From positions 248,001 to 312,000 of the IMG/VR virus record IMGVR_UViG_3300021197_001489: 64,000 nt of DNA. One strand, written 5' to 3'. Of the stretch, positions 12,021 to 63,852 are shown piece by piece. Under the pieces are notes generated by a model, which did no database searches, was not told where the DNA came from, and was given only the letters and a program-made list of their open reading frames with translations. A program made the translations under genes and the position numbers. How positions within the stretch are numbered: the stretch's first letter is position 1; each line of letters opens with the position of its first letter. The DNA comes from a virus.

Positions 12021-12028
12021 AAAGAAAG

Positions 12029-12059
12029 TTGACAAAGGGGTAGTTTTCCTGTATAAATA
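12029..12059 (+). promoter_or_regulatory. Composite promoter of hsp20 (sigma70-like plus late box)
   Basis: TTGACA at 12029-12034, a 17-nt spacer and TATAAA at 12052-12057. The -10 region also reads TATAAATA (12052-12059), identical to the T4 late promoter box, so the gene could be served both early and late. Confidence 0.7.
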
Positions 12060-12119
12060 ATATTGTAAGTTGCTTAACAGGACTTACAATTTAAATCTTG
12101 CTTTTAAAGGAGAAACAAA

Positions 12120-12593: not shown

Positions 12594-12615
12594 AACTTCA
12601 GATAAGTACAAGTAT

Positions 12616-12634
12616 GCAGAGGGTAATCCTCTGC
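12616..12634 (+). other. RNA hairpin between hsp20 and clpS
   Basis: GCAGAGG, loop GTAAT, CCTCTGC: a perfect 7-bp stem in the 62-base gap between hsp20 and clpS. No T-run follows, so it is more likely an mRNA stability or processing element than a strong terminator. Confidence 0.5.
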
Positions 12635-12655
12635 GTACAGTACAGAGAGAAAACA

Positions 12656-39707: not shown

Positions 39708-41139
39708 AATCTATTCTTCCTTTTCTCATAATGCTGTATACAAATATTCCAATAATACACACAATTAGTGACATGAATATTGGACGTGTGATTAATGTTT
39801 CCACAGTGTAAAGTCCTGTGATCTGAAATGTTAATCCTTCAACTTTTTCTGCCAGTATGTAACCGATTAACATAGCAGGTCTGCTAAACTTGTAGTGTCG
39901 CATTGTAAATCCTATTACAGAAAATACTGCTAACATTGCAAGGTCTTCCCAACCGCCTGTGTACTGCATTGAAGTAAAAATAATCAATCCTAGTAGCACA
40001 GGAAAATAATATTTGTATGGAACTGCGGCCAGTTTACTAATTGGCTTGATTAAAACCATACAAATCAGTGCAACTACAACTGTGGCACCTAAAAAGCCAA
40101 ATGTCATACTTGCAAATAATTCTGTGTCTTCTGCAATATCTGGCGTGCCCAGTTCGATGCCCAAGTACATAAACAGGCTCATCAATATAGCTGCAAACTT
40201 TGCACCTGGTATGCCAAATATAACTGTGGTAATCATTGATGTTGCCTTTTGTGCATTGTTAGCACCCTCAGGTCCTATCACACCCTTGATGTTGCCATTG
40301 CCAAACTTTTCTTTGGGATTACTGGCAACTGCTTGTCCATACGCCATCCAGTCTGCCATTTGCCCACCTAGTCCAGGCAACAAGCCAATGAACGCACCTA
40401 TAAAGCCACCGCGCAAAGCAAGCCATCTGTTCTCCCAACTTGCTTTCATGCCTGCCCATAGCTCACCATCGCGTATTTCACTGTCAGCAGTGCTGTGCTT
40501 TAAAAACAGCCCTCGTGTTAGTTCAGGAACAGCAAACAGTCCTGCGGCAACTGCCATTATCTGTATACCATCTTCTAAGTAGAACCAATATTGTGCGCCG
40601 AATCTGGCTGCATTATTATCTGGGTTGACACCTACCATGCCTACAAAGATTCCAAAAGCAATAGCAAGGATGGTGCGGAACCAAAACTGGTTGGTTAAAA
40701 ATCCCACAGTGACAAATGCCATTAAAACAAAAGCCCACAGTTCAGGCACACCCAGTATATAGATTAAATTGGTATACCATGGCAACAATAAAAATACCAA
40801 ACACCCCCAAAGCAAACCGTTTACAGTTGATGTTGTTACTGCGGCACTGATAGCATAGCCTGCTCTGCCACGTTGGGCTAGTGGAAAGCCATCAACCATG
40901 GTAGCGGCTGCACTGTTAGCACCGGGTATGCCTAGCAGTATTGCAGTGAAACTGTCACCTGTTGTGCTTGCAGCAACTACTGCCATAAGGAATATTACTC
41001 CCATATATGGCTCGTGTGCAAAGTAGCTAATAAATCCAAACAGTGCAACCAAACCTGTTGTTGCCCCTGCACTGGGAATAATGCCTATAATTAGGCCATA
41101 AAATACTCCGCCGAGCAGATATGTAATCATCTCGATCAT
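39700..41139 (-). CDS. tctA: Tripartite tricarboxylate transporter, large membrane subunit
   Basis: A 479-residue TctA-type permease with about ten to twelve membrane helices. Two repeated Gly/Pro signatures typical of TctA are present: LLGIPGANSAAATMVDGFPL with GRAGYAI (~res 67-95) and VIGPEGANNAQKATSMITTV with FGIPGAKFAA (~res 288-320), plus GLLPGLGGQMADWMAYG. It would carry the carboxylate across the inner membrane. The small subunit TctB is not encoded nearby, so the host TctB, or none, must serve. Slightly shorter than bacterial TctA (~500). Confidence 0.9.
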   Translation of the reverse strand: MIEMITYLLGGVFYGLIIGIIPSAGATTGLVALFGFISYFAHEPYMGVIFLMAVVAASTTGDSFTAILLGIPGANSAAATMVDGFPLAQRGRAGYAISAAVTTSTVNGLLWGCLVFLLLPWYTNLIYILGVPELWAFVLMAFVTVGFLTNQFWFRTILAIAFGIFVGMVGVNPDNNAARFGAQYWFYLEDGIQIMAVAAGLFAVPELTRGLFLKHSTADSEIRDGELWAGMKASWENRWLALRGGFIGAFIGLLPGLGGQMADWMAYGQAVASNPKEKFGNGNIKGVIGPEGANNAQKATSMITTVIFGIPGAKFAAILMSLFMYLGIELGTPDIAEDTELFASMTFGFLGATVVVALICMVLIKPISKLAAVPYKYYFPVLLGLIIFTSMQYTGGWEDLAMLAVFSVIGFTMRHYKFSRPAMLIGYILAEKVEGLTFQITGLYTVETLITRPIFMSLIVCIIGIFVYSIMRKGRIDYA

Positions 41140-45787: not shown

Positions 45788-47674
45788 ATGAAGAACGTAT
45801 ATCTGGCACAAATGAGCTTGGAATTGCCAGGATCGAACTATTATTATTTTCCATACAGTATTGGAGTGGTTTGGGCATACGCAACTACACAACCTGATAT
45901 AAATGAAAACTATCAATTGTGTAATATTTTTAGCGTAAAAGAGCCAATCGACCGTTTAATGGAAAAAATTGTTGATCCAGGAATACTTGGACTTTCAAGT
46001 TATACATGGAACACCATGTACAACGAGGAACTTGCACGACGTGTCAAAGAAAAGTATCCTGAATGCACAGTGATAATTGGTGGGCCAAATACGCCTAACA
46101 ACAGCGAAGGGTATTTTGAAACCCGCCCTTATGTAGATTTTATAACACATCAAGAAGGCGAGGGGTCATTTACTGGATTACTTCGGCATCTTGTGGGCAA
46201 GCAGGAACTGATGGAAATTGCTGGGATCAGCATCAATAACAACGGCAAAACTGTAATGACCGGGCCAAGTCAACGTGTGGCTCTCGACGATGTACCATCC
46301 CCATATCTCATGGGCCTGTTTGACAACATCAAAACTGAACACCCGAACTTGATATTTAATGGTGTGCTCGAGACCAATAGAGGATGTCCGTTTATGTGTA
46401 CATTCTGTGACTGGGGCGGCACAACATTTTCAAAACTAAAACGTTTTGGCATGCAACGCATAGCTGACGAAATTGACTGGATGGGTCGCAACAAGATTGA
46501 AATGGTTGTAAACAGTGATGCCAACTTTGGTATACTCAAAGAACGCGATGTACTCATTGCAGATATGTTGATTGAGACCAAACAAAAGTACGGCTTTCCT
46601 GTACTGTTTGATACAAACTGGAGCAAGAACGCAACAACACAACTAGTCGACATTGCTGTCAAACTTATGGAAGCGCAGATGATGAGACGCTTTACCATGG
46701 CATTGCAAAGCACTAACCAAGACGTCTTAAAGAATATTAAACGTGTAAATCTCAAAGAAGAAGCAATGACTCGTGTTGCAGAAACTGCCTTTAGCAATGG
46801 CATGAGCGTTAACACCGAATTAATTATTGGCCTGCCTGGTGAAACATGGGAGTCATGGACTTCTGGTTTGTGTCATCTATTAAGTAGGGATATTATTGTT
46901 GAAGCGTATCCTGTGACTATATTGATGAACAGTGAAATGGGCCAGGATGACTATATTGACAAACATGGTATCACATCAACAACACTAAAAAGTTTTTTCT
47001 CTAAGTATGTTGATGAATGGCAAATCATGCTTACTGGAACAAACACATTGCCCGAAGCACAGATGAAAAAATTATGGTTATGGACTTGGCTTACATCAAT
47101 GATGGATGCAAATGGATATACACAGGTTGTATCGCGCTATCTCAACAAACGTCACGGCGTGCCATTTGAAAAGTTCTACGAGCGGCTGCTGGACTATGGA
47201 CTTGAAACACCCGATAGTGCGTTTCATCCTTGGTTGCACAAGTGGCAAGACTATGCTGAACAACTGGAGTTCAACATGTTTCTAGCCGGACTAACTTATT
47301 CACCTGTGATGCAAGACCTTGGACTGCACAAACGACAGCAAACCTATCAGGACATTTACGCTGTAGCACAGGAATTTGCTCCGCAAGATACACTGTTGCA
47401 GGATGTTATGATAGCGCAAGAGAGGCAACAAACCATATTCAATCACGAAGAAACAACCAAAATTACACTGAACGCCAATGTGTTTGAATACTCGTTGGGC
47501 AAAGAAGAATTAGATATTGCGCCAACAAGCTATGTATTCCACAGGGCATATCCGCCAAAAGGCACAAATCCTAGCTGGGTTGAGTGGTATAACAGTACTA
47601 GAAAAAACAAAAAGTGGCAGGCTAGGGTAGAAAAAATCACAAAAAAAGCAACTCTTTTTCACGAAAACGGTTGA
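45788..47674 (+). CDS. B12-binding-domain radical SAM enzyme
   Basis: A 628-residue protein. Residues ~1-170 form a cobalamin-binding-like Rossmann domain (LGLSSYTW, VIIGGPNTPNN, VDFITHQEGEG), followed by the radical SAM core with the cluster motif CPFMCTFCDWGG (~res 201). The rest (~450-628) is helical. Such enzymes methylate or rearrange unactivated carbons using SAM and, usually, B12. No ribosome site is visible; the terminator T-run ends 12 bases upstream and TATAAGTA, close to the late box, lies at 45775-45782, so a leaderless late transcript is possible. Needs a reducing partner; the phage ferredoxin at 50712 could supply it. Confidence 0.88.
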   Translation: MKNVYLAQMSLELPGSNYYYFPYSIGVVWAYATTQPDINENYQLCNIFSVKEPIDRLMEKIVDPGILGLSSYTWNTMYNEELARRVKEKYPECTVIIGGPNTPNNSEGYFETRPYVDFITHQEGEGSFTGLLRHLVGKQELMEIAGISINNNGKTVMTGPSQRVALDDVPSPYLMGLFDNIKTEHPNLIFNGVLETNRGCPFMCTFCDWGGTTFSKLKRFGMQRIADEIDWMGRNKIEMVVNSDANFGILKERDVLIADMLIETKQKYGFPVLFDTNWSKNATTQLVDIAVKLMEAQMMRRFTMALQSTNQDVLKNIKRVNLKEEAMTRVAETAFSNGMSVNTELIIGLPGETWESWTSGLCHLLSRDIIVEAYPVTILMNSEMGQDDYIDKHGITSTTLKSFFSKYVDEWQIMLTGTNTLPEAQMKKLWLWTWLTSMMDANGYTQVVSRYLNKRHGVPFEKFYERLLDYGLETPDSAFHPWLHKWQDYAEQLEFNMFLAGLTYSPVMQDLGLHKRQQTYQDIYAVAQEFAPQDTLLQDVMIAQERQQTIFNHEETTKITLNANVFEYSLGKEELDIAPTSYVFHRAYPPKGTNPSWVEWYNSTRKNKKWQARVEKITKKATLFHENG

Positions 47675-50355: not shown

Positions 50356-50712
50356 ATGGATAACGATTATATTACGTTAATTGATCATACTGCGTTAGGT
50401 GAGGACGATTTAACACCCTATAGTATAAATGTTCCTTGTAACTTGATCGATGAGGACAATATTTTTTCAATGAATCACGAAGTAAGTGGAAAAATGGTCA
50501 TAAATGGCAAAGATGCCGACATTGAAATTAATGGTGTTAGCATCACTGAAACACTGAGTGGTATCCAAGAAAGACTGGCTATCCTGCAACCCAACCCAGA
50601 ACTAGAAAAAGAATTTTTAGAGCTGGCCAAAATTAGAAAACAATATACCAAACTTGAAAAAACATTGCTTGAAAAGAAAGCAGTGTGGGACGCTCTCGGA
50701 AGGGATGATTAA
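50356..50712 (+). CDS. Hypothetical protein with C-terminal coiled coil
   Basis: A 118-residue acidic protein behind CAAGGA. The N-terminal half is beta-rich ([20 protein letters not shown]) and the C-terminal third is a coiled coil ([20 protein letters not shown]). I associate this form with T4-like marine phages (function unknown). Its stop overlaps the ferredoxin start. Confidence 0.75.
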
Positions 50713-51032
50713 TGACATATGTAGTCACTGAGGCCTGCATTAAGTGCAAGCATCAAGACTGTGTCGAAGTATGCCCTGTAGATTGTTTCTATGAAGGCCC
50801 AAACTTTCTCACAATTGACCCTGATGAGTGTATTGACTGTGCAGTTTGTGTGCCAGAATGTCCTGTTGATGCAATTGTACCTGATTCAGAATCTGACCAA
50901 TTTTGGCTTGATCTTAATGCTGAACTGGCTATACTGTGGAAAGACAACAACATCACTGAAGTTGGCGAAGTTCCTGCAGATGCAGCCGAATGGAAAGACG
51001 TCAAGCTAAAATTGCACCTGCTAGAACGATAA
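50712..51032 (+). CDS. fdxA: Seven-iron ferredoxin, FdxA type
   Basis: A 106-residue ferredoxin with nine Cys: C9, C12, C17, C21, C25 and C40, C43, C46, C50, in the arrangement of Azotobacter-type [3Fe-4S][4Fe-4S] ferredoxins, and the C-terminal ~45-residue extension of that family. It shuttles electrons, possibly for the radical SAM enzyme at 45788 and via the FNR at 53087. Stop and start are coupled with the gene before. A bacterial-type 7Fe ferredoxin in a phage is unusual; most cyanophage ferredoxins are of the 2Fe plant type. Confidence 0.93.
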
Positions 51033-51037
51033 TTTGG

Positions 51038-51065
51038 TTGACTTTGTCGCACACTATGTTATACT
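51038..51065 (+). promoter_or_regulatory. Early-type promoter with perfect palindrome
   Basis: TTGACT (51038-51043), 16-nt spacer, TATACT (51060-51065). ACTGTATACAGT (51063-51074), a perfect 12-base palindrome, covers the start region; leader then AAATTAGACGGAG. Confidence 0.85.
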
Positions 51066-51098
51066 GTATACAGTGAAATTAGACGGAGCAGCTATCAA

Positions 51099-51482
51099 AT
51101 GACTATGCATTTAGTGAGAGGCATGTCCAGCCTCAAAACACAAGGTCATAAACACACAGGTTTGACACAGCGAGACAGAGACGCCAAAGTCGCACATGAT
51201 AAATGGTTGCGCGAGCGTGGATTGCATCCTACACAACTCAAAGCAAAACTTCCGCATAATGCAAAAGGCAAACGCTTAGGTGTAGGTACGATGCCTGACT
51301 ATAGCTCAAGGCAAGAAACTGTGCCCACTAGTGATCGTATTATGGCTACTGCAACCAAGAAGCATGAGAATACATATACAGGTAACGAGATTGCAGGCAT
51401 TGGATTGTTACACAAAAGTAATCTTGTTCCTGTGCGCAAGGACAGTAACGACGCAAAAGAAATTGCTAGAATGAGGAGATAA
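51099..51482 (+). CDS. Early basic hypothetical protein
   Basis: A 127-residue basic protein, Lys/His/Arg-rich and low in hydrophobics (MTMHLVRGMSSLKTQGHKHT start; LKAKLPHNAKGKRLG). Mostly disordered-looking. Directly behind an early promoter and ACGGAG. Function unknown. Confidence 0.72.
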   Translation: MTMHLVRGMSSLKTQGHKHTGLTQRDRDAKVAHDKWLRERGLHPTQLKAKLPHNAKGKRLGVGTMPDYSSRQETVPTSDRIMATATKKHENTYTGNEIAGIGLLHKSNLVPVRKDSNDAKEIARMRR

Positions 51483-51484
51483 CA

Positions 51485-51658
51485 GTGGCACTTGGCAGCG
51501 TTGGACAGAATCTATTACACGCTCTGCAATGGGAAATATATGACTTTAGGGTAGCAGACGCTAAGGAGCAATGGGATCTAGACCAAGATGAAGCAGCGGC
51601 TGTTGAAAAGTGGATGGTTAATCGTATCGAACAACTTAGGAAACAGAGGGACGAATGA
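51485..51658 (+). CDS. Small acidic protein (GTG start)
   Basis: A 57-residue acidic helical protein (GTG start eight bases after GAGGAG; reads ALGSVGQNLLHALQWEIYDF). Its stop overlaps the next start (ATGA). Function unknown. Confidence 0.6.
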   Translation: MALGSVGQNLLHALQWEIYDFRVADAKEQWDLDQDEAAAVEKWMVNRIEQLRKQRDE

Positions 51659-51822
51659 AACATTTGGTGGTTGATACTGTAAACAAAGTAACACAAACAA
51701 CTCGTTTATATACCTATGACATTGACGAGCCGCAACAGGTCACACAGTTGCTGGAAAAACACAACAACAATAATGAATTTGTTGCTGCTTACAAGGTGAT
51801 TGAGCATGAAGCGAGTGTATAG
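51655..51822 (+). CDS. Small hypothetical protein
   Basis: A 55-residue protein (MKHLVVDTVNKVTQTTRLYT start), with a small beta-alpha-beta pattern. Start overlaps the previous stop; 17-base overlap with the next gene. Function unknown. Confidence 0.6.
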   Translation: MKHLVVDTVNKVTQTTRLYTYDIDEPQQVTQLLEKHNNNNEFVAAYKVIEHEASV

Positions 51823-52111
51823 TGTAACCATTAATGGTGCTAACGATTGTGTGTGTATGACTGAGTCAGAAGCATCATTTGTTACTTTGAAGTTTGCTGA
51901 AAAATTAAAAATGTATGACATGACTGCACGTCACGGAATGAAGCCTGAACACTTGCACAAATTACAACGCTATGAAGATGCATTGTTGCCTCATAACTGT
52001 GTGCGAGTTGGCGCAAAGCCTATCTACACCAAGGGCATTGGTCCAGGACAATTTGGCGGCTCTGCACAAGTGATGTGGGAATTTCAAGACCTAATGGAGA
52101 TGAAAATATGA
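51806..52111 (+). CDS. Hypothetical protein
   Basis: A 101-residue protein (MKRVYSVTINGANDCVCMTE start; GPGQFGGSAQVMWEFQDLME near the end). ATG 51806 preferred to TTG 51800. Overlaps the next start (ATGA). Function unknown. Confidence 0.7.
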   Translation: MKRVYSVTINGANDCVCMTESEASFVTLKFAEKLKMYDMTARHGMKPEHLHKLQRYEDALLPHNCVRVGAKPIYTKGIGPGQFGGSAQVMWEFQDLMEMKI

Positions 52112-52386
52112 CTAAGTATACACAACAAATTGAGCAAGACGGCGTAAAGGCTGCATTGATCAATGGAATTATTGAAGTTGCATTTACCAAAGCAGATGGT
52201 AGTTTGCGCAAAATGAATGCTACACTGTTAGAAAGTGTAGTTCCTAAAGCAAACAAGGAGGACCCTCTAAGCACCAAAGCAGTGCGCAAAGTCTCACCAG
52301 AAGTTTGCGTAATTTGGGATGTTGATGCCAACTGTTGGAAAAGTTTCCGCTGGGATCGACTGAAAACTGTAGAGGAGAAAACTTGA
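52108..52386 (+). CDS. SH3-like phage protein (DUF2693-like)
   Basis: A 92-residue protein with IEVAFTKADGSLRKMNATLL, then VCVIWDVDANCWKSFRWDRL. The pattern F.K.DG..R.M.ATL ... V.D.....W.SFR.D matches the small beta-barrel family seen in many phages (DUF2693-like). Function unknown. Overlaps the infA-like gene by four bases. Confidence 0.7.
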   Translation: MTKYTQQIEQDGVKAALINGIIEVAFTKADGSLRKMNATLLESVVPKANKEDPLSTKAVRKVSPEVCVIWDVDANCWKSFRWDRLKTVEEKT

Positions 52387-52601
52387 GTAAAGAAGGACTT
52401 GTTACTTTTGAAGGTAAGGTAACTGAATTGCTACGTGGTGGTATGTTTCGCGTAATTATCGAAGGTAATGGCCACGAACTTATAGCACAATTAAACGGTC
52501 GAATGCGCATGCACAAAATCAAAGTGCTGTCTGGCGATACTGTGGAATTAGAAGTATCGCCATATGATCTTTCTAAAGGCCGTATTACCCGGCGTCGGTA
52601 A
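52383..52601 (+). CDS. infA: Translation initiation factor IF-1
   Basis: A 72-residue protein, exactly the length of bacterial IF-1, with the OB-fold pattern: GLVTFEGKVTELLRGGMFRV, GHELIAQLNGRMRMHKIKVL and GDTVELEVSPYDLSKGRITR. IF-1 sits in the ribosomal A site during initiation and helps IF-2/IF-3 choose the start codon. The start is TTG at 52383, eight bases after GAGGAG and overlapping the previous stop (TTGA). Placement in an early-type cluster suggests the phage tunes host translation; this window itself uses several GTG and TTG starts. Confidence 0.92.
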   Translation: MSKEGLVTFEGKVTELLRGGMFRVIIEGNGHELIAQLNGRMRMHKIKVLSGDTVELEVSPYDLSKGRITRRR

Positions 52602-52605
52602 ATAT
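52598..52605 (+). promoter_or_regulatory. Possible late promoter box
   Basis: GTAAATAT overlapping the infA-like stop, 27 bases upstream of the next GTG start. Weak match to TATAAATA. Confidence 0.35.
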
Positions 52606-52631
52606 TCCTGTAACAACAACAAGGAACTCCT

Positions 52632-53090
52632 GTGCTATCAAAATTAGATTTCAAACAAATAGTAAACATTCTTGGCGACGATCCAGTTCGACCACACCTC
52701 AATGGCAAATTTCGCTGCACCAAGGGTCGCGAAGTGTACGCACTCTATGAAGATCAATTTGCTGAACAAGCACCAGTTCTTCACAAAGGGCCACTGGCAG
52801 TAATTTGTGTAGCCTACACCAACGAAGTTCCAATCACTGAACAGGAACTTGAACAGTACAGTGATCCTAACGGAAACATTGCAGTGTTTTACACAGTGTG
52901 GAGTTACAACCGCGGCGCAGGACGACAGATTGTTCTGGATGTTGCAAGTTATTTGAAACGTGAGCGCAGCGTAACACGCTGGGTGACTCTTAGCCCACTT
53001 ACAGAAATGGCAGAACGTTTCCATTTACGCAACGGCGCCACACTGCTCGCACGTGGAGCGGAGTGCCAAAACTTTGAATACATGGTATGA
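52632..53090 (+). CDS. GNAT-acetyltransferase-like protein
   Basis: A 152-residue protein with a GTG start eight bases after AAGGA. The C-terminal part (IAVFYTVWSYNRGAGRQIVL, then LSPLTEMAERFHLRNGATLL) follows the N-acetyltransferase fold (beta 4 with V/I, glycine-rich acetyl-CoA loop, then helix and the C-terminal NGA). Similar proteins occur in marine T4-like phages. Substrate unknown. Overlaps the FNR gene by four bases. Confidence 0.7.
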   Translation: MLSKLDFKQIVNILGDDPVRPHLNGKFRCTKGREVYALYEDQFAEQAPVLHKGPLAVICVAYTNEVPITEQELEQYSDPNGNIAVFYTVWSYNRGAGRQIVLDVASYLKRERSVTRWVTLSPLTEMAERFHLRNGATLLARGAECQNFEYMV

Positions 53091-53797
53091 TTCTTCCAAT
53101 TACAGAAGTTGAACACTACACTGATCAACTGTTTCGTATCAAGCTAGAAAGACCGCAATCGTATAGATTTAATGCAGGTGAGTTTACCATGATTGGGCTG
53201 TCTAAAGGCGATATTAGTCGCGCATACAGCTTCACTAGCGGCCCTGGCGATGATTACCTAGAGTTTTACAGCATCAAAGTACTTAATGGCCCGCTTACAG
53301 GACGTTTACAGCATGTGAAACCTGGCGATACGTTAGAAGTTGGAGACAAACCCACAGGAAGTCTTACACTTGCAAATATTGAACTTGGCGGCAATTTATG
53401 GTTGTTAGCAACAGGCACAGGCATTGCGCCTTTTATCAGCATCCTGCGTGACCCTGCAACATATGATTGTTTTGACAGCGTAACAGTAGTTTGGAGTGTG
53501 CGCACAGAACCAGAGCTGGATGCGTATCAAGACTTTATTAACGAAATGCCTGTGCGTTTTATACCTGTGATTACACAGGCAGGCAATACGTGGAGAGGTC
53601 TAGACACCCGCATAACAAACTTGCTAGATTGGAAATGCATATTAGTAGACCGTGATCCTGCTCTAAACAAAGTGATGATTTGTGGCAGTCTTGACTTCAA
53701 CAATGATGTAAAAACACGTCTGACTGATTGGGGTTGGAGCGAAGGGAATCGCAAAAGTGCAGGCACATTTGTGGTTGAACGTGCATTTGTTGGATAA
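53087..53797 (+). CDS. fpr: Ferredoxin-NADP reductase
   Basis: A 236-residue bacterial-type FNR. FAD-binding motif RAYSFTS (~res 45), NADP-binding LLATGTGIAPFISIL (~res 106-120), MICGS (~res 201), and a terminal GTFVVERAFVG, as in the proteobacterial Fpr family. It moves electrons between NADPH and ferredoxin; the FdxA gene is 2 kb upstream, so the phage carries both partners. Coupled to the GNAT-like gene by overlap. Strong call. Confidence 0.95.
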   Translation: MILPITEVEHYTDQLFRIKLERPQSYRFNAGEFTMIGLSKGDISRAYSFTSGPGDDYLEFYSIKVLNGPLTGRLQHVKPGDTLEVGDKPTGSLTLANIELGGNLWLLATGTGIAPFISILRDPATYDCFDSVTVVWSVRTEPELDAYQDFINEMPVRFIPVITQAGNTWRGLDTRITNLLDWKCILVDRDPALNKVMICGSLDFNNDVKTRLTDWGWSEGNRKSAGTFVVERAFVG

Positions 53798-53804
53798 GTA
53801 CAAT

Positions 53805-54359
53805 ATGCAAGAAGATATCAGAAACCTTATACAATTAACCGAAGCCAAAGAAGAAAAACTTGCGGCTGATCCGTTACCATATAGCAGTGGTGATCTAGAA
53901 CCTGTACTGTCAAAAGACAACGTCGATTATCACTACAATGTGCTAACCAAAGGCTATGTAAATCGCTACAACAAAGGCGAAGGTGATCCGAAGTTTAATT
54001 ATGGTGGAGCAAAACTGCACAATCTTTTCTGGACACAACTACAACCACCTAAAGGATCAAACCGTCCTAAAGGGACGATTAAAGAGTTCATCGACAAGCA
54101 TCATGAAGACTATGACAATTTCAAAAAAGAAATGCTTGCTGCGGCTATGAGCATACAAGGTTCGGGTTGGGTATATCTTGCCAAAAACGGCAGTATAAAA
54201 ACTACACCCAATCAGTCATACAAAACTGATATACTGTTGCCAATTGATATGTGGGAACACAGTTTTATGGATTATATTCCAGCAAAAGATGCTAAGAAAA
54301 AATACATTGAAAACATGATGAAGATTGTTAACTGGGATGTTATTAACGGGAGACTATGA
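53805..54359 (+). CDS. sod: Fe/Mn superoxide dismutase-like protein
   Basis: A 184-residue protein with the SOD fold. Metal ligands align as His43 (DYHYNVLTKGYVNRYN), His72 (GAKLHNLFWTQL), Asp148 and His152 (LLPIDMWEHSFMDY). GSGWVYLAKNG and IVNWDVINGR, near-invariant in the family, are also present. It would dismute superoxide. Some second-shell positions differ from the bacterial consensus, so metal preference is not clear. Start ATG 53805 (MQEDIRN) is seven bases after the FNR stop, with AAG-type site. With FNR, FdxA and IscA-like genes around it, protection of Fe-S chemistry is a sensible role. Confidence 0.9.
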   Translation: MQEDIRNLIQLTEAKEEKLAADPLPYSSGDLEPVLSKDNVDYHYNVLTKGYVNRYNKGEGDPKFNYGGAKLHNLFWTQLQPPKGSNRPKGTIKEFIDKHHEDYDNFKKEMLAAAMSIQGSGWVYLAKNGSIKTTPNQSYKTDILLPIDMWEHSFMDYIPAKDAKKKYIENMMKIVNWDVINGRL

Positions 54360-54526
54360 TGATTAAAAAATTTATTACAAGCAGACTTGACGAGCGCACT
54401 AGTTGGGACGGCGCGGCACTTATTGCAATTGGTGTAATTATACTGATTGCAGGACCGTTTGCCAAACTTGCAGCTTATGCAGCTATAGCTTATGGAGCAT
54501 GGACAATATGGAAAAAAGAACAGTAA
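54356..54526 (+). CDS. Small membrane protein
   Basis: A 56-residue protein (MMIKKFITSRLDERTSWDGA start) with one hydrophobic region (ALIAIGVIILIAGPFAKLAAYAAIA, in two parts) and charged ends. Behind GGGAG; start overlaps the SOD stop. Conserved-looking in marine phages; function unknown. Confidence 0.65.
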   Translation: MMIKKFITSRLDERTSWDGAALIAIGVIILIAGPFAKLAAYAAIAYGAWTIWKKEQ

Positions 54527-55011
54527 AACTTGCACTGGTTGCAATCTTATGTTTTGGTCTTGGAATACTGGCAACCTGGATTGGTTGCTCAATTTGGGAC
54601 AAACACAGCCACAGGATAACTTGGGAGTACCCAATTACCAAAATTAATGGAGAAACTCCTCCGGGCAAAATGCAGCCATTGGTAAACACTGAAACCATGC
54701 TTGATACAACACAAAGCGACGGTATGCGTTTGGTAGTGATGAAAGGCACACGACTTGCAGGAACTAGAGTTGCAATACATGTGCATCAATACGGTGGTCA
54801 CACCTGTGTACTCGAAGGAACCATAACTGATTTTGTTGAAGGTAAACCAAACGGCGTTTATCCAGCAGGCACCTGTTATTATATGCCAGCAAATACTCCA
54901 ATGAGTGCTGCCAATCTTGGAACAGAAGATGCATTATTAATTGATACATTTGTTCTTCCGTTTGATGTTCCAACGATTACAATAATGGAGCCAGGGTATG
55001 ACACAGAATAA
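54508..55011 (+). CDS. Membrane-anchored cupin-domain protein
   Basis: A 167-residue protein: N-terminal membrane helix (ALVAILCFGLGILATWIG), then a cupin with HVHQYGGHTCVLEGTITDFV (His, His, Glu ligand pattern) and a second cupin motif region YPAGTCYYMPANTPMSA. Start 54508 is ten bases after GGAG; ATG 54499 is too close. Function unknown; single-domain cupins of this form often bind small molecules or metals. Between SOD and the Fe-S carrier. Confidence 0.78.
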   Translation: MEKRTVKLALVAILCFGLGILATWIGCSIWDKHSHRITWEYPITKINGETPPGKMQPLVNTETMLDTTQSDGMRLVVMKGTRLAGTRVAIHVHQYGGHTCVLEGTITDFVEGKPNGVYPAGTCYYMPANTPMSAANLGTEDALLIDTFVLPFDVPTITIMEPGYDTE

Positions 55012-55156
55012 ACCGGCAATGGCTCCTAAAGAGCCAGGGCAAAAACCCAAGAATAAATGGGACTACAGTAAAGAATACAGCGAGCGTGACTGGATGCGAA
55101 CTGTAGGCTACGGAACGCCAGATGGAAAGTATTTCAAAGATGATAACGATCACTGA
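54998..55156 (+). CDS. Small hypothetical protein
   Basis: A 52-residue basic/charged protein (MTQNKPAMAPKEPGQKPKNK start; WDYSKEYSERDWMRTVGYGT). It overlaps the cupin gene by 14 bases and the Fe-S carrier by 17. Function unknown. Confidence 0.6.
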   Translation: MTQNKPAMAPKEPGQKPKNKWDYSKEYSERDWMRTVGYGTPDGKYFKDDNDH

Positions 55157-55445
55157 AGAAGCAAAACAGTATTTGGATAAAGTACGCAACGACGACTACG
55201 TTACACTTGGTGTAAAGGGTGGTGGCTGTTCAGGCTTTACCTATGTGTGGGACTTTAAAAACAACTGGCCAGATGTAAACTGGAGTGAGCCATACGCAGA
55301 TGCACTGGTGTTAGACCCAATGGCAGAAATGTTTGTAGCAGGTTGTACCATAGACTACAAAAATGAACTAGGTGGTAGTTATCTTACAGTAATCAACCCA
55401 AATGCAACTGCAACCTGTGGCTGCGGGGAGAGCTTTGCTGCTTAA
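55140..55445 (+). CDS. A-type Fe-S cluster carrier (IscA/ErpA-like)
   Basis: A 101-residue protein with the three cluster-binding Cys of A-type carriers: LGVKGGGCSGFTYVW (Cys30) and TATCGCGESF near the C-terminus, plus CTIDYKNELGGSYLTV. IscA-like proteins receive and deliver [2Fe-2S]/[4Fe-4S] clusters to apo-enzymes. Start ATG 55140 preferred to a longer frame at 55122. It could mature the phage ferredoxin and radical SAM enzyme. Length is typical. Confidence 0.93.
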   Translation: MITITEEAKQYLDKVRNDDYVTLGVKGGGCSGFTYVWDFKNNWPDVNWSEPYADALVLDPMAEMFVAGCTIDYKNELGGSYLTVINPNATATCGCGESFAA

Positions 55446-55478: not shown

Positions 55479-55940
55479 ATGGCACAACAAATAATCGACT
55501 TAGGAACTTCGGCAAACGCAGGCGACGGTGATAATCTTCGCAGTGCAATGGATAAAACCAACGATAACTTCACTGAAGTTTACACTGCTGGTCCAGTTGG
55601 TTCAAACATTTCAATCACAAACAACTCAATTTCAAGCACCAACACAAATGGCAACATTACACTAGCCACAGATGGCACTGGTGTTATTCAAGTTGCTAAC
55701 GATATTGTACCTGATGTTAACAACACACGCTGGATTGGTAGTGCTAATGTACGTCCATTAGGAGCATACATCGGAACTGCTGGAGTAATAAGTTCAGGAC
55801 CATTGACTCTTCCTACATTTGCAGACAATACCGCAAGAGATGCTGCAATTACGCAACCAGCCGCGGGTATGATAATCTTTAATACAACAGGCACAAAGTT
55901 CCAAGGATACACAGGCAGTGCTTGGGTTGACTTAAACTAG
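55479..55940 (+). CDS. Fibre-like virion protein
   Basis: A 153-residue protein. The first ~40 residues (QQIIDLGTSANAGDGDNLRS then AMDKTNDNFTEVY) are a shared attachment module, also present at the start of the proteins at 56436 and, more weakly, 62466. The rest is beta-rich with fibre repeats and a C-terminal end (FNTTGTKFQGYTGSAWVDLN) typical of tail-fibre tips. Behind a late box. Confidence 0.8.
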   Translation: MAQQIIDLGTSANAGDGDNLRSAMDKTNDNFTEVYTAGPVGSNISITNNSISSTNTNGNITLATDGTGVIQVANDIVPDVNNTRWIGSANVRPLGAYIGTAGVISSGPLTLPTFADNTARDAAITQPAAGMIIFNTTGTKFQGYTGSAWVDLN

Positions 55941-55953
55941 TAAAGGATAAGCA

Positions 55954-56382
55954 ATGGGATTCATAAAAGATACAGACGGTATTGCCAGATCACGTAAAGC
56001 AGATAAAGACATTACCTATAGATATGCCGATGCAGATGTAAACACATTTTTAGGTGGCGGTACTGCAGGTAGTATTGTTACAGCTGGAGGAATCACTGGT
56101 GGCATACAAACCATAAGTGGTCCAGGTGCAATCAACCTCACAACATTATACACTGAACTTACAACAACTGGTGCAGATGCATTCTCACTTGCAAATGGTG
56201 CCGCAGGGCAGATTAAAATAATCACCTTGCTTGTAGACGGCGGTAACGCAACAATCACTCCAACTACATTTTCAAACGGCACATCAATCACAATGGACGC
56301 CGCAAATGATTCAGTTACAATGATCTATGGTACCAACGGTTGGCAGATAATTGCCGCACAAGCAATAACTGTTAATGCATAA
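55954..56382 (+). CDS. Small virion protein
   Basis: A 142-residue protein (MGFIKDTDGIARSRKADKDI start). The C-terminal ~60 residues (GQIKIITLLVDGGNATITPT; MIYGTNGWQIIA) match the end of the protein at 62466 (GQVKVLAMLGDGG; MYINSKWFCIG), so the two share a structural domain. Probably part of a fibre or its tip. Confidence 0.75.
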   Translation: MGFIKDTDGIARSRKADKDITYRYADADVNTFLGGGTAGSIVTAGGITGGIQTISGPGAINLTTLYTELTTTGADAFSLANGAAGQIKIITLLVDGGNATITPTTFSNGTSITMDAANDSVTMIYGTNGWQIIAAQAITVNA

Positions 56383-56400
56383 ACTTTAGTTTACAATTGC

Positions 56401-56409
56401 CATAAATAC
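56401..56409 (+). promoter_or_regulatory. T4-type late promoter box
   Basis: CATAAATAC, 27 bases before the long fibre gene at 56436; identical to the box at 55448. Confidence 0.65.
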
Positions 56410-56435
56410 TCATAACAGCAAGTTAGAGGTTCAGT

Positions 56436-58586
56436 ATGGCAAGACAAGTAATTAATGTAGGCGCAACCGCAAATGACGGCACCGGAGACGGTCTCCGTAC
56501 TGCCTATATCAAGTGTAACGATAACTTTCAAGAACTGTATCAAACCTCAACAACTCCTATACAGATTGTCAACGGCACTTCAAACGTAGCAGTTACTGAA
56601 AATGCCAATGTCACGGTATCAATTGCTGGCAGTGCCAATGTTGTAAACTTTGCTGGCAGCATAACAGAATTTACCGGTAATGCTTCTATCAGTGGCGACC
56701 TGTCTATTGGTAACAGTGTAACTGTTACACAGGACGTTACAATAAGTGATCAACTTATTATTGTAGGCACCCTGGGCAGCAATATGATTCCTGACGGTAA
56801 CGGCACTAGAGACTTAGGGTCAAATGCAGCAAAATGGAAGGACCTATATCTAAGCGGTACCAGTACCGTCCTTGGAAATATAACGTCATCAGCAAACATA
56901 GCTGGTGCTAATATTATTGCATCACAAGATGTTATAATTGCCGGGCAACATGTCACAACTGGAAATGTAACAGCTGGGAACATAATCACTGCTGGTGTTG
57001 TCACTGCAACAGGTAATGTCACCGGTGGAAACTTGGTTACAGGCGGTTCTGTAGCAGCAACTGGAGATATTAGCGGCGCAGCTATTACAGCAACAGGCAA
57101 CTTTAGTGCATTAAATATTACTGCAACAGGCAGTGCAAACATAACTGCTGGCGGCTTTTTTGTAGGTGATGGTGGATTTTTATCCAACGTCACTGCCGCG
57201 TCAAACGTTGCAGTAACTCAAATTGCCAACGGAACATCAGTTGTAGGCATAAGTTCATCAGGTGGTAACGTTGAACTTACATCAGGTGGTGTATTAACAT
57301 TCCAATCAAACGGCACAAACTTAGACGTACTTCGACCACTCACAGTAACTGGTAACGTAACTGCTACTGGAAACACAAGCGGCGGTAACTTAATTACAGC
57401 TGGTAGAGTTGTTAGTACAGGAAACATAGTATCAAGTGGTAATATCAGTGCTGTAAACTTCTTAGGTAACGGTAGTTTCTTAACGGGCGTTGCATCAACT
57501 GCTATAACAAACGGCACATCAAATGTCACAGTTGCAAGTGGCGCTGCTACAACAGTTGGAGTTGCTGGCACTACTAGGCTTACTGTAAGTGCAACTGGCG
57601 CCGCTGTAGCAGGACTAATAACTGCAACTGGCAATATTACTGCTACAGGTAATGTAGCAGGCGGAAACGTAGTAACTGGTGGTTTAATAACTGCAACAGG
57701 CAATATCACTGCTACAGGTAATGTAGCAGGTGGAAACCTAGTAACTGGTGGTGCAGTAATTGCTACCGGGGCAGTAACTGGTGCAACACTTGCCGGTGAC
57801 GGATCAGCATTAACTGCACTAAATGGAACCAATATAGCAAGTGGTACAGTTGCAGCCGCTAGAGTGGCAACACTCAACCAAAATACAACTGGTAGTGCAG
57901 CCACACTCACAACCGCAAGAGCAATTGCACTAACAGGTGACGTAACTGGTACTGCCGACTTTGATGGTAGTGCAGGCATTAGTATTGCGGCTACTATTGC
58001 AGCTAACTCAGTTGCACTTGGCACAGACACAACAGGTAATTATGTTGCTACAGGTGCAGTTAGCGGTGTTGGTCTTAGTGGTAGTTCAAGTAGTGAAGGT
58101 GGTACATTTACTGTAACATCAAATGCTACAAATCTTAACACAGCCTCAACTATTGTTGCAAGAGATGCCTCAGGTAACTTTGTTGCTGGCACAATAACTG
58201 CACTTGCAACTTCAGCACAATATGCTGACATTGCAGAGATGTATAGCAGTGATCACCCACACGAACCCGGCACAGTGCTAGAGTTTGGCGGTGCAGCAGA
58301 AGTAACCCGTAGCAGTCAAGACGCTTCGCCAAGAGTAGCAGGAGTAGTGAGTACCAAGCCAGCACACTTGATGAACAACGAACAAGATGGTGTTGCAGTT
58401 GCATTGGTAGGGCGCGTACCAACACATGTTGTTGGTCCTGTGCGCAAAGGTGACATGATGGTTGCCACAGCAAATGGCAGAGCAAGAGCCGAGGCTAATC
58501 CAGCAATGGGAACTGTGATTGGCAAAGCACTGGAAAATTTTGATGATGCTCAAGGGACAATTGAAGTAGTAGTAGGAAGGTTCTAA
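56436..58586 (+). CDS. Long tail-fibre-like protein with repeats
   Basis: A 716-residue protein. N-terminal attachment module (RQVINVGATANDGTGDGLRT then AYIKCNDNFQELYQ) shared with the protein at 55479. A long shaft (~res 90-520) of beta repeats of the form TGN-x-TATGN-x-GGN-LVTGG. The C-terminal ~130 residues (YADIAEMYSSDHPHEPGTVL; VAGVVSTKPAHLMN; GRVPTHVVGPVRKGDMMVA; IGKALENFDDAQG) match the conserved C-terminal head of marine myovirus fibres, of the Peptidase G2 self-cleaving chaperone type. Probably the receptor-contact fibre. Confidence 0.82.
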   Translation: MARQVINVGATANDGTGDGLRTAYIKCNDNFQELYQTSTTPIQIVNGTSNVAVTENANVTVSIAGSANVVNFAGSITEFTGNASISGDLSIGNSVTVTQDVTISDQLIIVGTLGSNMIPDGNGTRDLGSNAAKWKDLYLSGTSTVLGNITSSANIAGANIIASQDVIIAGQHVTTGNVTAGNIITAGVVTATGNVTGGNLVTGGSVAATGDISGAAITATGNFSALNITATGSANITAGGFFVGDGGFLSNVTAASNVAVTQIANGTSVVGISSSGGNVELTSGGVLTFQSNGTNLDVLRPLTVTGNVTATGNTSGGNLITAGRVVSTGNIVSSGNISAVNFLGNGSFLTGVASTAITNGTSNVTVASGAATTVGVAGTTRLTVSATGAAVAGLITATGNITATGNVAGGNVVTGGLITATGNITATGNVAGGNLVTGGAVIATGAVTGATLAGDGSALTALNGTNIASGTVAAARVATLNQNTTGSAATLTTARAIALTGDVTGTADFDGSAGISIAATIAANSVALGTDTTGNYVATGAVSGVGLSGSSSSEGGTFTVTSNATNLNTASTIVARDASGNFVAGTITALATSAQYADIAEMYSSDHPHEPGTVLEFGGAAEVTRSSQDASPRVAGVVSTKPAHLMNNEQDGVAVALVGRVPTHVVGPVRKGDMMVATANGRARAEANPAMGTVIGKALENFDDAQGTIEVVVGRF
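57615..57752 (+). repeat. Two 69-nt tandem repeats in the fibre shaft
   Basis: 57615-57683 and 57684-57752 encode 23 residues each (ITATGNITATGN-VAGG-N(V/L)VTGG). They are nearly identical at the DNA level, a recent duplication; fibre length may vary by slippage here. Confidence 0.85.
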
Positions 58587-61500: not shown

Positions 61501-62453
61501 AGATTTGTTGTTGCTATGCGTATGCACTTAAACATCCACTGGATGTATTCAATCCTAGCAATGAAGATTCATCATGCAAGTTCCCTGTTGGACCGGCAAG
61601 TCCGGATTATTTCTCACTGGAACAACATCTTGACAGTTTGATATTGTATTACGGTTCGTGGGTAGATAACCCTGATGGCACAGTTTCCACCACTTTCACT
61701 ACTGTATACCCAAACAGTTTGATCAATATGAGAGATCAAGTGATTGATGTAGTAGGACAACAAAGTACAGTACTTCCGCTGTGGATGACCACAAAGCAAA
61801 CAGACGGCAGAGTGTTAGGATTTACCAAGGCATGGGTAATTTGCTATGCACAACCTGGTGAAAGTGACCGAATCAGTTACAACATACGCACACAGTTTGG
61901 CGAAATATTAAACAGAGTAGACTTCATCAGTGATAGATATATCCTGGACAATCAACTAACTGCCGCTTGGGTACCAAACGAAGACTCAACAGACGGCGGC
62001 AACTGGAATCCAAGTCCACCACTTAGCACAACGTTTGATGTCGACTTTTACGTTGACTGGACTGCAATATCAACTGCTATACTTGGAATTGCTGTTGGCC
62101 TCACCAATAATTTAAGTCCAGTTGCAAATGCTGTTACGAGTGGATTTGCCAACGGCGACTTCAACGAAAGTGGTGTTATTACTGCCGCAGATGCACTTGA
62201 TGCGGCCAAATTCGGAGCTGATACGTTAGAAGATGGTACTGCAAAAACACGCATCCAAACTATTTTTGAGCCAGCACTAAGACTTGCACGGACTAACGAC
62301 CCAACAACGTATAATGAATATTTTGTTGGTGCAGGAAACACAACCACATTTGATGGCAACAGTTTGAGGTTTACTAGCCCTGTGGATGTTTACGGCAAGA
62401 CGGACAAGTATGATAAATACCTCGTATTCCCCAAGACGAATATTTTAGGATAA
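58587..62453 (+). CDS. Large virion protein with Ig-like domains and a class 3 lipase domain
   Basis: A 1288-residue protein. The first ~450 residues contain repeated Ig-like (He_PIG-type) units, recognisable by LPEGIQVTENGSIEGVP, LPPGLTINPTTGVISGY and IPPGLVFDRFTGWLTGF. Residues ~770-1030 look like a class 3 lipase: YIVMRGTQNEYDGKID (~res 791), the nucleophile elbow GGHSLGSAI (Ser869), YRLTNKNDIVPMIPG (Asp933) and a possible His near 1014 (EQHLDSL). Near residue 1200 a calcium-loop-like GDFNESGVITAADALD is dockerin-like. Late box upstream via the fibre gene. It could help breach lipid or lipopolysaccharide during entry; catalysis is unproven. Confidence 0.8.
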   Translation: MAQPVWVTPAGDLGTIAESLFFQVPIEATDSDGSTVKYSLIAGKLPEGIQVTENGSIEGVPLAYARVKGVPTEVSENVTSTFAVRATSTVDSQINDRTFELTVTGQDIPTFTTPAGSLGTFFDSDIINITIGFTDQDPNDTVVITVDNGELPPGLTINPTTGVISGYIVPVSNLPDDATSGFDASEWDLYPFDFSTRSINKTYEFTLSITDGKDQNLRTFSMYVGSRDSLTADTTDFTADSEVLTADLSPQRTPLITNFPAADPPYAAGFIGLFRHDNFFAYQILGLDLDGDAFEFEIALGDSSDIPPGLVFDRFTGWLTGFFPDQGATEKDYSFAITIYKKDNNAVVSEPYNYTMSVIGSIESSVTWLTGTLIPDRDVNDPIYSLGTIDNGETSMLAVKATNPSGRFLQFKLKAGSYPSTPGQYNLLPQGLQLLASGEIAGRVSFNTFAIDGGTTTFDKNTTTRLENAETTFDKAFDFTVVAYSSDGLVSVSRKFRITVDRAYNSPYNGLYIKAMPDQADRNFVNSLLQDTDIIPPSRVYRPDDPYFGVAKDVVYNHAYSLDTATLDEYLLALSKNHFRKKIILGPIKTAQALNPDGSVEYEVVYSDIVDTGVNSLGQSPAQSITLPYPATVYSETATEARQLFEDNFTNGNVADANVTALDQMSVAYLEESRDLNMLANIASQMAKDWIADGQPGDPAPIWTGDKYIPNPKVNDVFNWTPSNQCPVNMEEPLRYDKFKTQLAALTANDIIWCDYTVEVDDKADPEGKKKKTVRSIAPFGWLIEYGDTAYIVMRGTQNEYDGKIDTMAAKVINPIAGFGKGKTHNGFTIAYKGLGPKGEERPADVPGISLFDALNNTTKTKIKIGGHSLGSAISTLITNYAQTFNKFDRIEGYVSASPTVGNQKYADYFNALQDKDGNMLGNTFYRLTNKNDIVPMIPGSWLQYIAVAQEVLFDAPYTDPDNLVKTAKNHQICCCYAYALKHPLDVFNPSNEDSSCKFPVGPASPDYFSLEQHLDSLILYYGSWVDNPDGTVSTTFTTVYPNSLINMRDQVIDVVGQQSTVLPLWMTTKQTDGRVLGFTKAWVICYAQPGESDRISYNIRTQFGEILNRVDFISDRYILDNQLTAAWVPNEDSTDGGNWNPSPPLSTTFDVDFYVDWTAISTAILGIAVGLTNNLSPVANAVTSGFANGDFNESGVITAADALDAAKFGADTLEDGTAKTRIQTIFEPALRLARTNDPTTYNEYFVGAGNTTTFDGNSLRFTSPVDVYGKTDKYDKYLVFPKTNILG

Positions 62454-62465
62454 AAAGAGAGAAAC

Positions 62466-63374
62466 ATGGCAAGCAACATCAACCCCAACAATATCGATAC
62501 CACCTACCCTATTGCTGGGCAGGATAACGACAGCCAGGGCTTTCGTGATAACTTTACAAACGTCAAAACAAACTTTGAATATGCAGAGACTGAAATTGAT
62601 GATTTGCAAGCAAAAGGTATCTTCAAAAGTGCGCTGACCGGCACAACATTAGACAACGACATGGCAGGCGGACTAATCAAAAACGCAAAAACACAAGGTT
62701 TTCGCGGGACACGCATTGCACTTGGTGCAGTAACTGGTTCAACAGCAATTGATTATAGTGCAGGACAGTGGTATACTGTTACTACATCTGGATCAATTAC
62801 ACTGGCATTTAGTAATATTCCAGCAAGCGGCAACGCAAGTTGGTTTAATGTTCGAATCAATGTTGCCAACATTGCACACACTGTTACACTTCCAGCCACA
62901 GTTGGAGCAAGTGGTTCTGCACAGAGTGTAGCCGGCATCCAAGGCATCAGTTCAAATGTAATTACATTTAACGAAACTGGCACCTATGAGTTTGAATTCC
63001 ACACAGATGACGGTGGAACAACAATTTACCTAAGTGAACTAACACGCCCACGCAACAGACTGATGAATCCAATACAGCTTGCAGGCAGTGAAGATTTAGC
63101 CGCATCTGGTGCAGCCAGTTTAGCAAAGACTACCAGTTACTTTACAACAGGCGGTGCAGAAACAAGCACACTAGCCGCAGGTGTTGAAGGACAAGTTAAA
63201 GTCCTTGCTATGCTAGGCGATGGCGGTGATATGGTAACCACAGTGACTAATGCAGGATGGAAAGCATCAGGCACAGGTATTATTACATTCAGCGACATTG
63301 GCGAAGCAGTAACACTTATGTATATCAATAGCAAATGGTTTTGCATTGGTAACAACGGCGCTGCGTTTGGATAA
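62466..63374 (+). CDS. Virion/fibre-like protein
   Basis: A 302-residue protein (MASNINPNNIDTTYPIAGQD start). N-terminal module (DSQGFRDNFTNVKTNFEYAE) resembles the attachment module of the genes at 55479 and 56436. Middle is a beta sandwich (GQWYTVTTSGSITLAFSNI), and the end (GQVKVLAMLGDGGDMVTTVT; MYINSKWFCIGNNGA) is shared with the protein at 55954. Structural by composition and context. Confidence 0.78.
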   Translation: MASNINPNNIDTTYPIAGQDNDSQGFRDNFTNVKTNFEYAETEIDDLQAKGIFKSALTGTTLDNDMAGGLIKNAKTQGFRGTRIALGAVTGSTAIDYSAGQWYTVTTSGSITLAFSNIPASGNASWFNVRINVANIAHTVTLPATVGASGSAQSVAGIQGISSNVITFNETGTYEFEFHTDDGGTTIYLSELTRPRNRLMNPIQLAGSEDLAASGAASLAKTTSYFTTGGAETSTLAAGVEGQVKVLAMLGDGGDMVTTVTNAGWKASGTGIITFSDIGEAVTLMYINSKWFCIGNNGAAFG

Positions 63375-63389
63375 CGGTAAATTAAATTA

Positions 63390-63418
63390 TTGACATACTG
63401 ACTCCTCTACGCTATAAT
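63390..63418 (+). promoter_or_regulatory. Consensus sigma70-like promoter of mazG
   Basis: TTGACA (63390-63395), 17-nt spacer, TATAAT (63413-63418): both hexamers match the consensus. The -10 box lies in the loop of the hairpin at 63401-63437. Confidence 0.93.
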
Positions 63419-63441
63419 TAGTAAAGTGTAGAGGAGTTTTT
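63401..63441 (+). terminator. Terminator hairpin enclosing the mazG promoter and RBS
   Basis: ACTCCTCTAC (63401-63410) pairs with GTAGAGGAGT (63428-63437), 10 bp, followed by TTTTT to 63441, a rho-independent terminator for the virion-gene transcript. The 3' arm contains the GAGGAG ribosome site (63431-63436) of mazG. Confidence 0.85.
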
Positions 63442-63852
63442 ATGACACAAGTAGATTTAAATCGTTACAAAGAATTTGTTCAAACAGTAACAAGCGAACA
63501 AAGCAATGATACAATAGCAATGCATCTGGCAATGACTGAACTAGAAGCAGTTAGTGGTGTTAACATGGCACTGTTGTTGACTGGTGCAGTTGGACTTAGT
63601 GCTGAAGGTGGCGAGTTTATGGAAATTGTAAAGAAGTGCATCTTTCAAGGCAAACCCATGGATGAAGATACGCAGTTCCATGCAAAACGTGAATTGGGAG
63701 ACATCATGTGGTACTGGATTAACAGTTGCCGCGCACTCAACATTGATCCCAATGATGTTATTGAAGAAAATGTACGCAAATTAGAAAAACGCTATCCCGG
63801 CGGAAGTTTTGATGTGCATTACTCAGAGAACAGACAAGCAGGCGATCTCTAG
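63442..63852 (+). CDS. mazG: MazG-type nucleotide pyrophosphohydrolase
   Basis: A 136-residue protein with the MazG metal-binding pattern: SAEGGEFMEIVKK (Glu-x-x-x-x-Glu) and KRELGDIMWYWINSC (Glu, Asp), then IDPNDVIEENVRKLEKRYPG. It hydrolyses nucleoside triphosphates, including (p)ppGpp-related or damaged nucleotides, and is common in marine phages, where it is thought to keep host metabolism active. Start fixed by GAGGAG and by the tight 5' leader from its own consensus promoter. It overlaps the next gene (TAGTG). Confidence 0.92.
   Translation: MTQVDLNRYKEFVQTVTSEQSNDTIAMHLAMTELEAVSGVNMALLLTGAVGLSAEGGEFMEIVKKCIFQGKPMDEDTQFHAKRELGDIMWYWINSCRALNIDPNDVIEENVRKLEKRYPGGSFDVHYSENRQAGDL

Follow-up and report, generated by a model that had tools for sequence, protein, structure and literature searches.

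In a 64,000-nucleotide stretch of viral DNA (the window; positions 248001–312000 of the 316,012-base virus record IMGVR_UViG_3300021197_001489, labelled G000 in our comparisons) we found the genes of four iron–sulfur (Fe–S) and redox proteins: a ferredoxin, FdxA; a ferredoxin-NADP(H) reductase, FNR; a superoxide dismutase, SOD; and an A-type Fe–S cluster carrier, hereafter ATC. The genes of SOD and ATC form a pair that stays together in phages of very different kinds, and this is the new part of our findings. We propose, with about an even chance of being right, that the four genes make up a gene set that makes and keeps Fe–S clusters while the phage infects, with the A-type carrier at its centre. 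The record is that of a giant phage, whose structural genes and DNA polymerase appear T4-like. The four genes, and a small recurrent neighbour, are as follows.

50712–51032, plus strand: FdxA, a 7Fe (3Fe-4S plus 4Fe-4S) ferredoxin with a C-terminal DUF3470 extension (NF045490, PDB and phrog_8732 matches)
53087–53797, plus strand: FNR, a bacterial-type ferredoxin-NADP(H) reductase of 236 amino acids with C-terminus VERAFVG (PDB matches, conserved motifs)
53805–54359, plus strand: SOD of the Fe/Mn type, 184 amino acids (Pfam, 35-sequence alignment, AlphaFold2)
54359–54526, plus strand: orf54a, a putative membrane protein of 55 amino acids, a recurrent neighbour of SOD–ATC and of FNR in other phages
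55140–55445, plus strand: ATC, an ErpA-like A-type Fe–S cluster carrier of 101 amino acids (TIGR00049, PDB HI1723)

SOD and ATC are the one robust pair among the four genes, and they are so across divergent phages. We compared 57 virus records and merged near-identical records into lineages for the linkage tests. SOD was present in 20 of the records and the carrier in 38, with both in 19. The two genes lay on the same strand and no more than 1.5 kb apart in 12 of 16 lineages, where random placement expects 0.25 (P ~1e-19), and the carrier was found within 2 kb of SOD at 46 of the 60 SOD loci whose neighbourhoods we counted. FdxA and ATC were no more than 5 kb apart in 6 of 15 lineages, against 0.7 expected under random placement (P 3e-5). 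We set the distance limits post hoc, the records are fragments and shared ancestry was removed only in part, so that these P values are indicative, but the SOD–ATC excess is strong enough to survive such caveats. The small gene orf54a, whose product has no Pfam or PHROG family, lay within 2 kb of SOD at 38 of the 60 loci and within 2 kb of FNR at 32 of 80 FNR loci (the nearest 80 of 388 matched viral FNR loci; 80 FdxA loci were also counted). GenBank 'phage' matches to FNR, SOD and ATC that resembled bacterial contamination (Acinetobacter, Salmonella and Staphylococcus records) were left out.

Under the proposed reading, the ISC/SUF machinery of the host would make the clusters and the phage carrier would hand them to phage Fe–S enzymes. 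Electrons would pass from NADPH through FNR to FdxA, and FdxA could then provide low-potential electrons for [4Fe-4S] assembly, much as FDXR and FDX2 do for the mitochondrial ISCA proteins, on which [4Fe-4S] formation needs ferredoxin electrons (PMC9313013). FdxA electrons might also start radical S-adenosylmethionine (radical-SAM) catalysis, and SOD would remove superoxide, which otherwise would take iron out of exposed [4Fe-4S] clusters. In G000 the eight N-twitch proteins, the further radical-SAM proteins and the AprB-type ferredoxin are the likely clients. In favour of the proposal stand the SOD–ATC linkage, the nearness of FdxA to ATC and the persistence of both in the close relatives, the tight packing of the array, the families of FdxA and FNR, and the presence in the same record of the N-twitch proteins, the AprB-type ferredoxin and a ferritin-like protein. 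Radical-SAM enzymes, of which giant phages carry many, depend on oxygen-sensitive clusters and low-potential electrons; if a phage supplies both itself, this would imply that cluster supply limits infection, and the genes with which to test this are at hand. The SOD–ATC pair in particular offers a directly testable link from superoxide defence to cluster delivery.

All four genes are open and intact, their family matches are far above chance, and the identities given to them in the initial annotation were each borne out by family models or PDB matches. Its further statement that all key residues are present is correct for the nine cysteines of FdxA, the RAYS, GTGxAP and Arg175 elements of FNR, Cys30, Cys93 and Cys95 of ATC and all four metal ligands of SOD; it fails for two second-sphere residues of SOD, His30 and Tyr166, which are replaced. 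ATC, whose start is likely at 55140, matches TIGR00049 at 74 bits (cut-off 58.8), carries its cysteines as C30-x62-C93-G-C95 and has HI1723 as its best PDB match (2apn, E 1.5e-18). ErpA is the best specific model; the score of 77.6 bits is under the ErpA equivalog cut-off of 117, and ATC falls below every specific ErpA, IscA and SufA cut-off. With ErpA, IscA and SufA it shares the fold family and the three conserved cysteines, the ErpA protein HI1723 being the closest, and it presumably has one residue fewer between the first and second conserved cysteines than the E. coli members.

FdxA passes the FdxA equivalog model NF045490 (146 bits, cut-off 135) and its DUF3470 tail is recognised at E 1.5e-12; together with this tail, its cysteine pattern predicts one 3Fe-4S and one 4Fe-4S cluster. 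In the PDB it is matched best by Azotobacter vinelandii ferredoxin I and mutants of that protein (E 9e-36), with all nine cluster cysteines aligned. FNR aligns at full length with the bacterial ferredoxin-NADP reductases 4f7d, 2bgi and 1a8p (E 7e-49 to 1e-40). In 10 phage FNRs the RAYS and GTGxAP motifs, Arg175 (the RIT arginine) and the C-terminal AF are invariant and R139 is kept in at least 90%; we take these arginines to be the ones for the 2'-phosphate of NADPH. The protein scores 103 bits against the E. coli Fpr equivalog NF008178, under its cut-off of 390, and judged by sequence it is closer to the Azotobacter/Rhodobacter subclass than to E. coli Fpr. We considered a recent host origin for FNR and rejected it, because the nearest cellular relatives, which are alpha- and betaproteobacterial, are only 40–45% identical. 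FdxA- and FNR-type proteins pair in bacteria such as Azotobacter, where they are called FdI and FPR. The phage proteins resemble that pair in their families (a 7Fe ferredoxin and a bacterial FPR ending in AFV) and have its members as best PDB matches; unlike in Azotobacter, the partnership of phage FdxA and FNR is only presumed, and the phage genes are usually not neighbours.

SOD matches Pfam Sod_Fe_C at E 2e-20. Its start is likely the ATG at 53805 (184 amino acids), since a longer open reading frame from 53757 overlaps FNR. Among 35 phage SODs the metal ligands H43, H72, D148 and H152 are invariant, as are Tyr51 (the equivalent of Tyr34), Trp161 and the interface residue Glu162; the 69 position is Gly throughout and the 143 position is either Gln (26 sequences) or His (9). 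The invariant ligands and active-site residues imply metal-dependent catalysis. The AlphaFold2 model is a confident SOD monomer (predicted local distance difference test, pLDDT, 92), with query-normalised template modelling (TM) scores of ~0.75–0.81 to many solved SODs.

The genes that surround the four, and the features between them, are listed next.

51038–51065, plus strand: promoter-like site, TTGACT-16-TATACT, the second hexamer preceded by TG; suggestive only
52383–52601, plus strand: homologue of translation initiation factor IF-1, a cassette inside the array (TIGR00008 86.5 bits, cut-off 61; phrog_30201)
52632–53090, plus strand: GNAT-like protein that opens the tightly packed array; its stop overlaps the FNR start
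54508–55011, plus strand: cupin with an N-terminal hydrophobic segment (Cupin_2 E 7e-5, under the Pfam cut-off)
54998–55156, plus strand: orf55, a reading frame of 52 amino acids that overlaps the cupin gene at one end and the carrier gene at the other

From 52632 to 55445 the genes for the GNAT-like protein, FNR, SOD, orf54a, the cupin, orf55 and ATC overlap or abut, which suggests a single transcript. The GNAT-like label is itself tentative, as the match to the malonyl-CoA decarboxylase C-terminal domain is weak and below cut-off. FdxA lies ~2 kb upstream of the FNR-to-ATC array and closes an upstream run of genes, overlapping orf50b; several genes intervene, as does a 66-base gap, the only one between FdxA and the array, which holds the promoter-like site at 51038–51065. 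Promoter-like sites in the region are as many as shuffled sequence leads one to expect, so that beyond being suggestive they are no evidence of a promoter. The close grouping of the four genes noted at the outset thus applies to FNR, SOD and ATC, which share one array, while FdxA ends a separate upstream run.

A number of observations weigh against a common gene set, beginning with the way in which the four genes are inherited. A backbone of orf45, orf48, orf49a, orf49c, orf50b, FdxA, orf51, orf52a, orf54a and the carrier is common to the relatives G005/G006, G014 and G038. On this backbone, G005/G006 have SOD and the cupin and lack FNR, IF-1 and the B12-binding radical-SAM gene that lies upstream of FdxA in G000; G014 has the B12 gene, IF-1 and the cupin and lacks SOD and FNR; and G038 has the B12 gene, IF-1 and the GNAT-like gene and again lacks SOD and FNR. 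The IF-1 gene occupies the same place in G014 and G038, as the cupin does in G005 and G014. FdxA and ATC persist in all close relatives examined, which makes the remaining genes cassettes. The four genes are therefore not inherited as a block, their presence and absence being independent both in these relatives and across the 57 records. The initial annotation had looked to co-occurrence of the four genes and the radical-SAM gene in relatives as the mark of a functional set, and to independent occurrence as its refutation; in G005/G006, G014 and G038 they do occur independently, which by that measure refutes the set as a whole. What is left of that functional set is an FdxA and an FNR of types that pair in bacteria, a conserved SOD–ATC pair and many Fe–S proteins that could make use of them, and not a fixed module.

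It is possible, rather than probable, that the genes are separate host-derived cassettes gathered in one tolerant region, each serving its own purpose, with no joint pathway beyond the SOD–ATC pair. Gain and loss on the conserved backbone fits such a history, as does the sharing of the array with the unrelated IF-1 and GNAT-like genes and the fact that in other phages FNR and FdxA are mostly found elsewhere. However, the linkage of SOD and ATC is far beyond chance across divergent phages, the proximity of FdxA to ATC exceeds chance as well, and the proteins are all part of one and the same biochemistry.

The neighbourhoods of FNR and FdxA also speak against the proposed Fe–S set. FNR abuts a phage DNA polymerase gene, and not Fe–S genes, at ~52 of the 80 loci, and FdxA was nearby at none of these nearest 80 FNR loci; conversely, only 2 of 80 FdxA loci had FNR near them. 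A carrier lay within 5.5 kb at 12 of the 80 FNR loci and an N-twitch radical-SAM gene within 4 kb at 6. We rejected FNR as a partner of the N-twitch cluster: a first set of records had shown the two within 4 kb in 5 of 8 lineages (expected 1.3, P 0.003), and with the larger set giving 6 of 80, the association is kept as a minority context only. FdxA was likewise rejected as an N-twitch partner, and this too is a point against the proposal, since N-twitch proteins over cut-off occur in 20 of 27 FdxA-positive and in 21 of 29 FdxA-negative records. In addition, all twelve terminase-selected records had N-twitch matches and none of the twelve had FdxA. Two mutually related records, G026 and G045, speak for the proposal: in them FNR, FdxA and N-twitch radical-SAM genes form one co-directional stretch in which FNR and FdxA are 13 bases apart. 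With 388 viral loci matched, the phage FNR is a widespread family, and most often it directly abuts a gene for a B-family DNA polymerase (for example in L462, L441 and L475).

These neighbourhoods could mean instead that FNR and FdxA serve nucleotide metabolism by providing electrons for class I ribonucleotide reductase (RNR), and possibly for ThyX, in the way that YfaE maintains the NrdB cofactor in E. coli, with ATC and SOD being a separate matter. In many phages FdxA has as neighbours genes that by inspection we named clamp loader, GroES-like, PhoH-like and dCMP deaminase, and G000 itself has NrdA, NrdB, glutaredoxin and ThyX. The glutaredoxin (CSYC, window ~741–1004) follows the RNR small subunit gene (7–744); the initial annotation had placed glutaredoxin and RNR in the window, which is accurate apart from the RNR large subunit, encoded just outside it at record positions 245309–247609. 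We nonetheless consider a role in nucleotide metabolism quite unlikely: adjacency to replication genes may reflect no more than when the genes are expressed, YfaE belongs to the 2Fe-2S proteins and is not an FdxA, and in most phages FdxA and FNR have different neighbourhoods.

The last points that count against the Fe–S set concern SOD itself. His30, a conserved second-sphere gateway residue, is replaced by Leu in all 35 phage SODs (Leu47 here), and the interface position Tyr166 is Tyr in none of them. In human manganese SOD (MnSOD) these two residues are joined by a low-barrier hydrogen bond that spans the dimer interface (PMC8024262), and k1 is lowered from 1.5 in the wild type to ~0.005 in H30V and ~0.1 in H30N/Y166F (PMC9208312). 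With His30 and Tyr166 replaced, dismutase activity cannot be assumed. The human mutants H30V, H30N and H30N/Y166F are changed at the same two second-sphere positions as the phage protein; in contrast to these engineered mutants, the phage replacements are natural and universal in the clade. Since both partners have been lost together, the alignment suggests a coordinated change and not decay, and the clade offers a natural experiment on the part that His30 and Tyr166 play in SOD catalysis.

From this one might argue that the SOD-like protein does not work as a fast dismutase and instead partners the carrier, binding metal or turning over slowly; the strict coupling of its gene to that of ATC, along with the lowered k1 of the human mutants, would agree. 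We think this somewhat unlikely, as the ligands and the other invariant active-site residues described above are all in place and the predicted fold is that of a normal SOD monomer. A further reading, rather improbable in our view, is that large phages have in SOD and ATC a dedicated unit of two proteins, with a dismutase whose proton relay has been rebuilt by the loss of His30 and Tyr166 working specifically with the carrier. Such a SOD, often accompanied by orf54a, might for example guard clusters in transit or load iron, which would give the SOD fold a role not described in cells.

The SODs of Pseudomonas jumbo phage PA5oct (gp223) and Vibrio phage 2.275.O are of the same phage type (36–38% identical), and on inspection gp223 has the same Leu and Met replacements. 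The gp223 record carries a note of detection by electrospray ionization tandem mass spectrometry (ESI-MS/MS), so this type of SOD is expressed in at least one phage. Unlike in G000, no ATC was recognised beside the SOD gene in these two phages; in PA5oct we considered the two small genes that follow gp223 as candidates, but neither could be recognised as a carrier on inspection. Genes for ClpX-like, HSP20 and ClpS proteins lie at 8227–12961 of the window, and PA5oct has ClpX, HSP20 and ClpS near its SOD gene.

The candidate clients of an Fe–S gene set are numerous in G000, and include the protein that the initial annotation had singled out.

45788–47674, plus strand: B12-binding radical-SAM protein, a possible client (Radical_SAM and B12-binding in Pfam)

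This protein is nearest to the KedN5 methyltransferase family (NF033712, 258 bits, under the cut-off of 700). G000 further encodes eight N-twitch radical-SAM proteins over the NF033640 cut-off (170 bits), another radical-SAM protein at record position 132196 and a protein that is QueE-like by eye, with no Pfam hit. Five of the eight N-twitch genes are clustered at record positions 87951–97179 and the others are at 51569, 198189 and 214253; N-twitch proteins over cut-off occur in 41 of 56 large phage records, with ~20 matches in some. With so many radical-SAM and Fe–S proteins in the record, the likely clients are many and not the B12 enzyme alone, and a client set of this size explains cluster supply better than a single enzyme does. 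It is very unlikely that feeding the B12/radical-SAM enzyme at 45788 is the main purpose of the set. The gene is ~3 kb from FdxA in G000, G014 and G038, but it is absent from the same backbone in G005/G006, where FdxA, SOD and ATC remain, and FdxA is absent from G039 and G041, whose B12 radical-SAM proteins are roughly 50% identical to that of G000. As a sole client it thus has to give way, at least eight other radical-SAM proteins being equally good candidates.

A system of this kind has a precedent. Nishimura et al. (2017; PMC5332604) describe marine T4-like environmental viral genomes in which an A-type carrier occurs with glutaredoxin and up to 12 radical-SAM genes, and already propose that the carrier serves viral Fe–S proteins. 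Searching the main text of that paper for ferredoxin and SOD gave nothing, and its section on these genes makes no mention of an FNR; relative to that account, G000 adds the electron supply and SOD, and the SOD–ATC gene pair documented here goes beyond carrier and radical-SAM genes. Phage SODs are already annotated in GenBank, where we found no DNA-level relatives of the record among the phages. A literature search that was thin on subscription journals found no report of the SOD–ATC pair, of an FNR–FdxA supply in phages or of phage SODs with His30 and Tyr166 replaced; these seem to be new features within a type of system already known.

Several other genes of the record were noticed. The AprB-type ferredoxin (TIGR02060 176 bits, cut-off 136; record 61922–62410) overlaps an oxygenase-like gene (62367–63500; L225) whose product resembles the alpha subunit of ring-hydroxylating oxygenases and matches the catalytic domain only, with no hit to a Rieske domain. 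Of 20 viral loci, nearly all have the two genes side by side, and they could be an oxygenase unit split from its electron supply; in L149 and L150 ATC stands directly before the pair. A Ferritin/Dps-like protein (record 18077–18517; Pfam Ferritin E 7e-23, phrog_3636) is a possible iron store or DNA protector. Two genes for TctA-family tricarboxylate transporters (window 39700–41139 and record 55496–56830) each adjoin a gene for a possible TctC-like binding protein that has no Pfam hit. Finally, an adenylation-domain-like gene (record 67365–68780) and an AcpS-like gene (69357–69758), both recognised by eye, lie near each other and suggest a carrier-protein-based pathway.

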